Below, piece after piece: positions 21,860-51,727 of a stretch of DNA of 64,000 nt. The stretch is from a virus, in the IMG/VR virus record IMGVR_UViG_3300046804_003469, positions 151,028-215,027 of that record; one strand, 5' to 3'. The translations under genes and the position numbers were made by a program. The notes below the pieces were generated by a model, which was not told the DNA's origin, did no database searches, and worked only from the letters and a program-made list of their open reading frames with translations. How positions within the stretch are numbered: position 1 is the stretch's first letter; each line of letters opens with the position of its first letter.

Positions 21860-22972
21860 ATGCCCCGTAAAATTTCTGTGACTGACGACCAACTGATTAC
21901 TGATCTTCGTTCTGTGTTTGGTAGTGAAGTAATTGCTGCCGATATTCGTGGATTTTGTGCCTCTCGTGGTCTTAACTATCAAACTGTGACTCGTCGCCTT
22001 GATAACTATAAGACTGGTCGTGGTCGTTGGAATCTTGAGGTAACTCAAGAACGTGTTGAAGAAATTGAACGTTCTTACCAATCTCCTGCAGTTCTTCCTG
22101 TCGTGGAACAAAACCTTATTCCTGATAAAGATGATACCTTCGTCAAGTTTGGTAATTTTAACGATATTAAAAAAATTATTCAGTCCCGTCTTTTTTATCC
22201 TACGTTTATTACGGGTCTTTCGGGTAATGGTAAAACGTTCAGTGTGGAGCAAGCATGTGCTCAATTGGGTCGGGAACTGATTCGTGTCAACATCACCATT
22301 GAGACCGATGAGGATGATCTGATTGGTGGTTTCCGTCTTGTGAATGGTGAAACTGCATGGCATAACGGTCCTGTGATTGAAGCATTAGAGCGTGGTGCAA
22401 TTCTTCTTCTGGATGAGATTGATCTTGCTTCTAACAAGATTCTGTGTCTCCAATCTGTTCTTGAAGGTAAGGGCGTCTTCCTCAAAAAAATTGGTCGATT
22501 CGTGAAACCCGCTGCTGGATTCAACGTGATTGCCACTGCAAATACCAAGGGTAAGGGTTCTGATGATGGTCGTTTCATTGGCACCAACGTGCTCAACGAA
22601 GCATTCCTTGAACGCTTCCCCGTGACCTTTGAGCAGTCCTACCCTGCTCCCGCAACGGAGCAGAAGATCCTGGAAGGCATCGCTCTGGACCTTGGCGTGG
22701 AAGACCGCGACTTCTGCAAGCAATTGGTAAATTGGTCTGATATTATTAGGAAAACTTTCTATGATGGTGGTATTGAAGAAATCATTAGCACCCGACGACT
22801 GGTTCATATCATTCGTGCATATAGTATTTTTGGTGATAAGGCAAAGGCAATCCAAGTTTGCATTAACCGCTTTGACGATGAAACCAAAACCGCATTCCTT
22901 GAACTTTATGATAAAATTGATGTCAATTTTGAACTTCCAAAAGAAGAGAGTGGCGAGACTCCTACTTTCTAA
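21860..22972 (+). CDS. cobS: MoxR/CobS-type AAA+ ATPase
   Basis: This 370-residue ATPase is the protein usually labelled CobS in cyanophages. Residues 1-75 form a small helical N-terminal domain. Walker A is GLSGNGKT near 119-126, Walker B AILLLDEIDL near 180-189, sensor 1 FNVIATANT near 220, and an arginine-finger region NEAFLERFP near 245. True CobS is a cobaltochelatase subunit, but no CobN is visible here. Pairing with the upstream VWA protein fits a general MoxR-VWA chaperone role at least as well. A TATAAT-like box at 21822 lacks a good -35. Local GC is raised around 22540-22730. Confidence 0.9.
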   Translation: MPRKISVTDDQLITDLRSVFGSEVIAADIRGFCASRGLNYQTVTRRLDNYKTGRGRWNLEVTQERVEEIERSYQSPAVLPVVEQNLIPDKDDTFVKFGNFNDIKKIIQSRLFYPTFITGLSGNGKTFSVEQACAQLGRELIRVNITIETDEDDLIGGFRLVNGETAWHNGPVIEALERGAILLLDEIDLASNKILCLQSVLEGKGVFLKKIGRFVKPAAGFNVIATANTKGKGSDDGRFIGTNVLNEAFLERFPVTFEQSYPAPATEQKILEGIALDLGVEDRDFCKQLVNWSDIIRKTFYDGGIEEIISTRRLVHIIRAYSIFGDKAKAIQVCINRFDDETKTAFLELYDKIDVNFELPKEESGETPTF

Positions 22973-22994
22973 TTTCTAATAAAACTTTTTTACT

Positions 22995-23032
22995 GAAAAG
23001 TGTTATTCGTATAAATAGTAATAGCACTTTTC
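22995..23032 (+). promoter_or_regulatory. Hairpin with late promoter in its loop, before the HNH gene
   Basis: GAAAAGTG-T-TATT (22995-23007) pairs with AATA-G-CACTTTTC (23020-23032), giving a stem of about 12 bp that ends 8 bases before the HNH start codon. The late box TATAAATA (23010-23017) lies in the loop. Read-through RNA would fold the hairpin next to the ATG. RNA started from the late box (about 23023) would lack the 5' arm. Confidence 0.75.
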
Positions 23033-23040
23033 ACCAACTT

Positions 23041-23538
23041 ATGTCATATACAAAAGAACAAAGAATTGAGTATAATAAAAAATACTATGAAAATAGGAGT
23101 GATGAGCAAAAAGAACTAAAACGCCTTGCTGATAGGGAATATTATTACAAAAATAAAGAAAAATGCAATAAAAGGCATTTAGAATATTATGAAACCAATA
23201 AAGAAAAACTAAAAAAACAGAATACTGAAAACAATAACAAAAGACGACAAAAACTAAAAGAGGAAGCAAAACAAAAACTTGGTGGAAAATGTGTATGGTG
23301 TGGAGCAACTGAAAACCTTGAATTTGACCATATAGACCCAGCACAAAAACAATTTACCATAAGTGCCTTTCCTTGCTCTCTTGAATTATGGTGGAAAGAG
23401 GTTGAAAAATGTCGCCTATTATGCAAAACCTGCCACAAAAAACATAGTGATGCTGAAATGGCAGCAAAACATCTTTATTGGGTAAATCTTTCTTTTGATG
23501 AACGACAAAAACTCATTCAGCAGCAACTTGACCAATAA
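23041..23538 (+). CDS. HNH homing-type endonuclease
   Basis: This 165-residue free-standing endonuclease has a very basic, Tyr/Lys/Asn-rich helical N-terminal half (about 1-80), likely for DNA binding. A zinc-bound HNH domain follows: CVWCGATENLEFDHIDP near 90-106 and LLCKTCHKKHSD near 128-139. It lies between the cobS-type gene and the clamp operon. It has its own late promoter within a hairpin and no good ribosome site, suggesting late and weak expression. It is probably a mobile gene that spreads by cutting phages lacking it. Confidence 0.9.
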   Translation: MSYTKEQRIEYNKKYYENRSDEQKELKRLADREYYYKNKEKCNKRHLEYYETNKEKLKKQNTENNNKRRQKLKEEAKQKLGGKCVWCGATENLEFDHIDPAQKQFTISAFPCSLELWWKEVEKCRLLCKTCHKKHSDAEMAAKHLYWVNLSFDERQKLIQQQLDQ

Positions 23539-23556
23539 CCTCAATCCTGATATAAT
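23528..23556 (+). promoter_or_regulatory. Sigma-70-type promoter for the clamp operon
   Basis: TTGACC (23528-23533), a 17-base spacer and a perfect TATAAT (23551-23556) overlap the end of the HNH gene. It should drive the DUF3310-like gene, 45, 44 and beyond early in infection. Confidence 0.88.
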
Positions 23557-23591
23557 TGGGGGAGGTAAAAAATACACCTTCCCTTTTCATT

Positions 23592-24092
23592 ATGGATAAT
23601 AAAAACACTGATTACATTTCACTAAACAACCCTCAATATTTTATGGGTGGTGATGGTTGTAGTGACGATTATGCACATTTGAATTTAAGTAACTTGTATA
23701 CTTATAATCTCAATAATGAAGATAAAATTGAAATTAAAAAAACTCCAGGTGAATCTTCCGCAACTATGAATGAGACTAAAAATCATCTTTGGAAATACAA
23801 CGAAGACAAAATCTTGAAAGATATTCAGGATTATGTGACTAGCACTTATGGAAGTCACTATTGCGGACATCAACAAGAATATCAAGGTGTCCAAACGATT
23901 GATTTGATGGCAGCAAAGGAACTTGCTTCAGATTTCTGTCAAGCAAATATTATTAAATACGGTTCTCGTTATGGTGATAAAGACGGACGTAGCAAGCGTG
24001 ATTTGATGAAAGTCATTCACTATGCTATGCTTCTACTTCACTTCGATGGTCATTATTCACGCAAGGATAATGGTCTTACAGAATTCCGTTGA
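23592..24092 (+). CDS. DUF3310-like protein
   Basis: This 166-residue protein has a divergent N-terminal half and a C-terminal domain DLMAAKELASDFCQANIIKY, then RSKRDLMKVIHYAMLLLHF. This is the pattern of DUF3310 (SaV-like) proteins, often annotated as nucleotide kinase-like without biochemical support. The ATG at 23592 is taken as the start; an upstream frame beginning near 23556 would start only a few bases after the -10 box. It is the first gene behind the sigma-70 promoter and abuts the clamp gene, so it is probably early. Confidence 0.75.
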   Translation: MDNKNTDYISLNNPQYFMGGDGCSDDYAHLNLSNLYTYNLNNEDKIEIKKTPGESSATMNETKNHLWKYNEDKILKDIQDYVTSTYGSHYCGHQQEYQGVQTIDLMAAKELASDFCQANIIKYGSRYGDKDGRSKRDLMKVIHYAMLLLHFDGHYSRKDNGLTEFR

Positions 24093-28395: not shown

Positions 28396-28775
28396 TGGAA
28401 CTGAAAGATTGGTTGAATTCGATAAATCAAACAAAAGTAAATTTAATTGATGATGATTTATCTTTAGAAAAAGAATATGCTCCATTCATCATCAATAGGT
28501 GTCTTTCTGGTCATATTGATTGTATTATGTATGCAAATGAGATGAACAGGTATAATTTTTTGCCAAAAAAGATGCAGTATGATTTTTTTATAAATAGTCT
28601 GAGGAAAAAAAAGAGATTCTCTCCTTGGCTCCGAAAAGATCAAATCAAAGACTTAGAATGTGTTAAACAATACTATGGATATAGTAATGAAAAAGCACTA
28701 CAATCTTTGAAGATTTTAAACAAAGAACAAATCAACTTTATTAAACAACGACTTGAAATTGGCGGAAAGAAATGA
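28395..28775 (+). CDS. 62: Clamp loader small subunit (gp62)
   Basis: This 126-residue protein (MELKDWLNSINQTKVNL, then EYAPFIINRCLSGHIDCIMYANEMN and FLPKKMQYDFFINSLRKKKRFSPW) is the cyanophage form of gp62, which completes the clamp loader with gp44. It is shorter than T4 gp62 (187 residues), and similarity to T4 is low. The call rests on the cyanophage pattern and on its place directly before regA. Start and stop both overlap the neighbours. Confidence 0.85.
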   Translation: MELKDWLNSINQTKVNLIDDDLSLEKEYAPFIINRCLSGHIDCIMYANEMNRYNFLPKKMQYDFFINSLRKKKRFSPWLRKDQIKDLECVKQYYGYSNEKALQSLKILNKEQINFIKQRLEIGGKK

Positions 28776-51356: not shown

Positions 51357-51695
51357 ATTACGAATTTCGTGATGAATTTCTGAATGGCAGTTTGAACATA
51401 CTAGGATACATTTATCTAATTCTTCTTTGACTTTTTCCCAACTTCTAGTATGACCACCTTTAGACAAATAAAAATCTTTTTCTTTTGGATTTAAGTGGTG
51501 AAATTCTAATGCCCAGTGAGAACGATTATAACCACAACATTGACAAGCACCGCCTTTATACGCTATGCTATCTCTTTTAAGGTTCTTTCTTCTCTGGTCT
51601 ACATAATATTTGTTCTTGCATTGTTTAGAGCAAAATTTACCTCTACCATTGTAAATAACTGCTTCTTCTAAACATAAGTGCCAAGCACATTTCAT
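51351..51695 (-). CDS. HNH endonuclease, the only minus-strand gene
   Basis: This 114-residue protein is read against all other genes. A first CxxC-type ribbon (CAWHLCLEEA, then FCSKQCKNKYY) precedes an HNH domain: CQCCGYNRSHWALEFHHLNPKEKDF with the His pair, and ILVCSNCHSEIHHEI as the second zinc half. It lies in the spacer between tRNA-Arg and tRNA-Asn, a common site for homing endonucleases. A late box and a hairpin lie directly before its ATG. It is probably mobile. Confidence 0.92.
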   Translation of the reverse strand: MKCAWHLCLEEAVIYNGRGKFCSKQCKNKYYVDQRRKNLKRDSIAYKGGACQCCGYNRSHWALEFHHLNPKEKDFYLSKGGHTRSWEKVKEELDKCILVCSNCHSEIHHEIRNL

Positions 51696-51727
51696 AAGAT
51701 TAACACGAATTGCTAATCTTATTTATA
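51696..51727 (-). promoter_or_regulatory. Late promoter overlapping a start-blocking hairpin, for the minus-strand HNH gene
   Basis: On the minus strand, TATAAATA (51727-51720) runs into AAGATTA (51720-51714), which pairs with TAATCTT (51702-51696). The hairpin ends one base before the ATG (51695). A late transcript should start near 51713, after the 5' arm. Confidence 0.75.

Follow-up and report, generated by a model that had tools for sequence, protein, structure and literature searches.

The 64,000-nt stretch of DNA analyzed here (the window) belongs to a 215-kb viral record whose gene content and gene order give it the appearance of a T4-like cyanophage. Genes are arranged in the order cobT, cobS, DUF3310, gp45, and gp44, with gp23 and its scaffold gene upstream. 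A free-standing gene is inserted after cobS, and its 165-aa product matched a PHROG HNH endonuclease family and no Pfam family (Table 1). Every close relative whose sequence spans both flanks has this gene between cobS and DUF3310/gp45, and the PHROG match, together with the existence of occupied and empty sites, suggests that the gene encodes a homing-type endonuclease. Terminator prediction found no convincing terminator upstream of the hairpin in the HNH leader, and transcription of cobS is the presumed source of early RNA reading through into this leader.

Table 1. Features of the cobS/gp45 region and of a second HNH gene in the window
Feature	Position	Strand	Remarks
CobS-like AAA ATPase gene	21860..22972	+	Pfam AAA_5
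5' arm of HNH leader hairpin	22994..23007	+	Unchanged, or changed with pairing kept, in nearly all of the 19 sequences aligned
TATAAATA, T4-type late promoter motif in hairpin loop	23010..23017	+	Putative, from motif and position; perfect match
3' arm of HNH leader hairpin	23020..23033	+	Spans -21 to -8 relative to the HNH start
Free-standing HNH homing-type endonuclease gene, 165 aa	23041..23538	+	PHROG HNH endonuclease, E 2.9e-18
TTGACC-N17-TATAAT early-type promoter, for DUF3310/gp45	23528..23556	+	Overlaps HNH 3' end; 11 of 12 consensus bases
G+C-rich hairpin, then T residues	23558..23584	+	5' arm spans predicted early +1 (~23563)
DUF3310 gene, first of gp45/gp44 operon	23592..24092	+	
Second HNH endonuclease gene, 114 aa	51351..51695	-	PHROG HNH, E 2e-31; antisense, adjoins tRNA-Asn
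Second promoter hairpin	51694..51722	-	Overlaps TATAAATA at 51727-51720 and extends into the second HNH ATG; z = -3.22

The HNH leader reads TGAAAAGTGTTATT CG TATAAATA GT AATAGCACTTTTCA CCAACTT ATG. The original prediction placed here a stem of about 12 bp ending 8 bases before the ATG, with a perfect late promoter motif in its loop. Stem and motif are both present, but the stem has 14 bp, including one U.G pair, and is separated from the ATG by 7 nt. No other inverted repeat of 12 nt or more occurs within positions 22900-23640. Folding of both transcript forms with RNAfold agreed with the prediction: the long leader RNA reached -18.4 kcal/mol (z = -3.07), which 1 of 200 shuffles equaled, and a transcript initiated at the predicted late +1 showed structure not beyond chance (z = +0.47). 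As a stem score, we used the pairing that closes over a TATAAATA motif. The HNH leader scored 30, a value reached by none of 5000 approximately dinucleotide-preserving flank shuffles (mean, 9.9) and by 0.065% of random genome positions; the remaining 14 of the 15 TATAAATA sites in the 215-kb record scored at most 16. Rfam returned a sub-threshold chance match to mir-251 and nothing else.

The hairpin had also been proposed to cover the ribosome-binding zone and hide the start codon. It does cover the landing zone, to which it is confined, but the AUG is outside the stem and there is no Shine-Dalgarno sequence to be hidden: in the five group A members checked, no Shine-Dalgarno-like 4-mer occurs at -18 to -4 before the HNH ATG. 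Such 4-mers precede just 12 of 50 other genes in the window.

NATAAATA has been described as the late promoter motif of cyanophages, and cyanomyoviruses have homologues of gp55, gp33, and gp45 (PMC2984593), the last of which is encoded within this window. With 9 occurrences in the window against 6.4 expected, TATAAATA is not enriched as such. Four of the seven plus-strand sites are intergenic and lie 27-46 nt upstream of an open reading frame, including the scaffold gene before gp23. From T4 spacing, the late +1 is predicted near 23023, so that the motif and its position would place a late promoter where its RNA lacks one arm of the hairpin. Another TATAAATA (28589-28596) is inside a gene that matches PHROG clamp loader; it is found at the same place in many loci, and its strongly conserved DNA context could reflect constraint on the coding sequence or a late promoter within the gene. 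Genes whose products start with MRDKE, MNSKE, or MDAQE (L166:5101, L109:912, L155:5687, and others) are each preceded, at many loci, by a terminator-like hairpin, TATAAATAT, and CTAAAAAGT, and are a repeated late gene module.

In a search of viral contigs, 24 loci included the full start region, and their proteins were 76-81% identical to the HNH endonuclease. All 24 relatives with an intact leader share the hairpin, the TATAAATA motif, and a start codon a few nucleotides past the stem, which is about 2 bp longer in most of them. Scanning by hairpin pattern gave 25 loci, every one at this HNH gene; the one extra match (L069) is a copy of the same gene at a contig end. Empty sites were examined by scoring 73 cobS loci whose sequence runs on into DUF3310 or gp45; 68 of them lack an insert of such a size. 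Because none of these 68 has TATAAATA within the first 120 nt after cobS, hairpin and late promoter belong to the mobile cassette. Leader matches in S-RSM4, S-WAM2, and Campylobacter phages were discarded as chance-level, and no such gene is present at the S-WAM2 and S-RSM4 sites. Locus L154 is occupied by another kind of insert, located between cobS and DUF3310 some 900 nt after cobS, and no hairpin stands at its start. The region from cobT through cobS to gp45 is apparently an insertion hot spot.

Across 16 distinct sequences of this family, 97.3% of stem cells pair. Eleven of 16 stem pairs are invariant, and one compensatory change was found (C-G to U-A in L014). Thirteen of the 16 sequences retain the U.G pair and three have U-A instead, and further G.U variants occur. 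An alignment of relatives had been suggested as a check for compensatory changes; variation left uncompensated is mostly absent, as anticipated, but strong covariation did not emerge. Covariation within the cobS/gp45 HNH family is weak and does not clearly exceed that of shuffles, since the arms vary too little. Their identity is about 95%, against 73% at third codon positions and 64% in the 20 nt upstream, which suggests either selection on the arm sequence as well as on pairing or extra duties of the arms, such as promoter or protein contacts.

The same layout occurs at other homing genes with other stems. More distant HNH genes, located between cobT and cobS, use an unrelated stem, CAGACGTTATCA-TATAAATA-GTGATAACGTCTG; among eight sequences, two of its pairs are changed on both sides and no shuffle equals its covariation score, and the upper stem is imperfect in three members. 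A third HNH type (L095 and L096) has another stem again, and two of its pairs are changed on both sides from one member to the other. When every TATAAATA site in the collected loci was scored for an enclosing stem, the best stems outside these HNH families were those before a GIY-YIG gene (L069) and an EndoVII-like gene (L024). Hairpins of the GIY-YIG (L185-188) and EndoVII-like (L209-219) genes are each conserved among their own relatives. At the EndoVII-like genes L225:2200-2265, L228, and L252, the leader hairpin includes the start codon and has GATAAATA or TATAAATA in its loop; the AUG of L225 and L252 is inside the stem. The second HNH gene of the window likewise has a hairpin that overlaps TATAAATA (Table 1).

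At HNH genes behind gp23 (in S-CAM3, S-H38, Syn33, L333, and L353), TATAAATA precedes a stem that extends almost to the ATG. Four of its nine pairs are changed on both sides, 91% of stem cells are paired compared with 22-40% when the arms are slid, and the covariation score is reached by none of 500 shuffles. Because late transcription of these genes would begin within the 5' arm, a short stem may remain in the late RNA. The layout is lacking in the HNH gene behind the capsid gene of ACG-2014f Syn7803C7 and in the ACG-2014f Syn7803C25 relative, and the DSL-LC02 relative shows weak folding only. The combination of unrelated stems with a common layout across homing-endonuclease families is the best support for reading the hairpin as a switch.

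The association with endonuclease genes was assessed in a sample not chosen for endonucleases, comprising 1.85 Mb around cobS and gp23 plus this record, with 153 open reading frames preceded by TATAAATA. Since the paired fraction of the late leader is diluted by weak A-U pairing, we used an energy difference instead: sequestration energy is the gain from pairing the sequence upstream of the late start with the late leader. At a threshold of at least 7 kcal/mol, picked after the data were seen, it was reached by 13 of 27 endonuclease leaders versus 5 of 126 others (Fisher 4e-8), with sites within one family being related. Mann-Whitney comparison of the two classes gave 0.002 by site and 0.04 by family, with families 14 and 18 assigned on weak PHROG matches and part of the non-endonuclease families labeled by eye. 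Weak folding is common in the A+T-rich leaders of late genes. The strong stem is a tendency rather than a rule because about half of the TATAAATA endonuclease leaders are without one (L168, L291, L296, GIY-YIG family 13, and the greater part of GIY-YIG family 18).

The downstream end of the cassette also carries a recurrent signal. At 58 of the 68 empty loci, TTGAC/TATAAT, mostly with a 17-nt spacer, is found at the cobS end before DUF3310-gp45, and isolate S-SRM01 has an early-type promoter at its cobS end too. In all 19 occupied loci tested, this promoter is rebuilt by the last HNH codons with the same spacing, owing to a match between the HNH tail (LDQ...) and that of cobS. Insertion would leave the gp45 operon connected since the 3' end of the cassette rebuilds, by consensus, the early promoter. 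Behind it, a G+C-rich hairpin and T run are present in nearly all occupied loci, with arms that differ between loci yet pair (GAGGAGG/CCTCCTC, GGGGAAGG/CCTTCCCC). As the predicted early start is inside the 5' arm, RNA reading through from cobS or the HNH gene would meet the full hairpin, and the operon's own RNA would not.

We consider it likely that the leader hairpin serves as a timing switch and moves together with the free-standing HNH homing endonuclease cassette. Early in infection, RNA reading through from cobS would carry both arms and thus a stable, conserved hairpin in the HNH leader; with the stem intact, ribosomes would be kept from their landing zone immediately before the AUG, and no endonuclease would be made. 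In late transcription dependent on gp55, gp33, and gp45, the polymerase would start past the loop, and the resulting RNA, lacking the 5' arm, would have an open leader from which the endonuclease could be translated. The two RNAs, the repression, and the late start are what we infer from sequence. This logic of a start hidden early and exposed late had been put forward in the original prediction, and it gains support from the linkage to HNH genes, the empty sites, the compensatory changes in other stems, and the unfolded predicted late RNA.

An alternative is that the arms act as DNA, with the HNH protein or another dimer binding them around the late promoter as an operator and repressing its own transcription. 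Operators over promoters are used by I-TevI, which represses itself at its late promoter, and probably by I-TevII and I-TevIII (PMC2988022), and the arm sequence is conserved beyond pairing, as its excess over third codon positions indicates. We nevertheless regard an operator as unlikely. The retained U.G pair and the G.U variants fit RNA better, with a count of G.U against A.C that is not decisive, and related HNH genes have unrelated arms. The I-TevI operator promoter resembles the homing site; here, unlike I-TevI, comparison of the arms with one isolate's empty cobS/DUF3310 site gave a best score of 6, against a shuffle mean of 7.1, and thus no similarity above shuffles.

It is more doubtful still that the hairpin is a terminator, or an RNA processing or stability element, that ends the cobS mRNA, with TATAAATA as an ordinary late promoter. 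The hairpin does come just after cobS, and four U residues are part of its 3' arm. An intrinsic terminator has a G+C-rich stem and a U run, but the HNH leader stem is G+C-poor, no U run follows it, and it received no terminator call; the hairpin is also missing from all 68 empty cobS ends. We rejected termination of cobS as its main role on the last two grounds. Several cobT/cobS HNH leaders and HNH genes after gp23 moreover have a separate G+C-rich terminator just upstream of the promoter hairpin. A chance palindrome in A+T-rich DNA, for which the weak folding of many late leaders might speak, has next to no probability given the 5000 shuffles and the lower scores at the other TATAAATA sites, to which conservation in all relatives and the recurrence of the layout with unrelated stems are added.

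A timing switch at the HNH leader has precedents. The hairpin and late-start logic has been described for I-TevI, I-TevII, I-TevIII, segB, and Aeh1 mobE (reviewed in PMC2988022 and PMC3014915). The likeness to T4 I-TevI drawn in the original prediction is apt, and Aeromonas phage Aeh1 mobE is a nearer precedent (PMC2988022). Like the gene described here, mobE is a free-standing HNH gene with a hairpin over the ribosome-binding region that late RNA escapes (PMC2988022, PMC3014915). It differs in lying within nrdA and in having a sequestered ribosome-binding site, whereas the present gene is at cobS/gp45, has no Shine-Dalgarno sequence, and has its stem 7 nt before the AUG. The early promoter that the HNH 3' end rebuilds for the gp45 operon further sets the cassette apart from the T4 I-TevI and Aeh1 mobE systems. 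In T4 I-TevI, I-TevII, I-TevIII, and segB, long early or middle RNA likewise forms an inhibitory hairpin, and the late start drops one arm (PMC2988022), but the I-Tev genes are intron-encoded, have a consensus Shine-Dalgarno sequence, and are mostly GIY-YIG rather than HNH. T4 gene e (lysozyme), soc, and gene 49 share an inhibitory RNA structure at the translation start, and the late promoter of gene e, TATAAATA, is in the part encoding the 5' strand (PMC3014915); these are ordinary phage genes and not mobile cassettes. Aeromonas phage 25 seg43 has a very stable hairpin ending just upstream of the start region, but it belongs to another protein family and its hairpin is given in the review without tested regulation (PMC2988022). 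Because no Shine-Dalgarno sequence is sequestered, the HNH leader would work like the I-TevI/mobE type without being a strict member of it, and the logic of I-TevI and Aeh1 mobE would thereby extend to cyanophages.

We tentatively propose, as an idea with somewhat more against it than for it at present, that many unrelated free-standing homing genes of T4-like cyanophages (HNH, EndoVII-like, and GIY-YIG) independently gained a late promoter inside or overlapping a start-codon hairpin, a searchable signature of homing genes, and that both ends of the cobS/gp45 cassette are switches, late before the HNH gene and early behind it, the latter restoring the promoter of the clamp operon. If so, delaying a homing endonuclease to the late stage of infection by a promoter-bearing hairpin would be a recurrent cyanophage solution and not a peculiarity of T4 and Aeh1, with several endonuclease families using hairpin delay through unrelated stem sequences. 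The promoter-in-hairpin layout would offer a sequence signature for finding homing genes, and the wider pattern beyond the cobS/gp45 cassette is worth testing; isolates Syn33, S-CAM3, and S-H38, which have the same layout, make the switch testable. The arrangement suggests how a selfish gene may sit in an early replication operon, beside the sliding clamp gene gp45, without harm.
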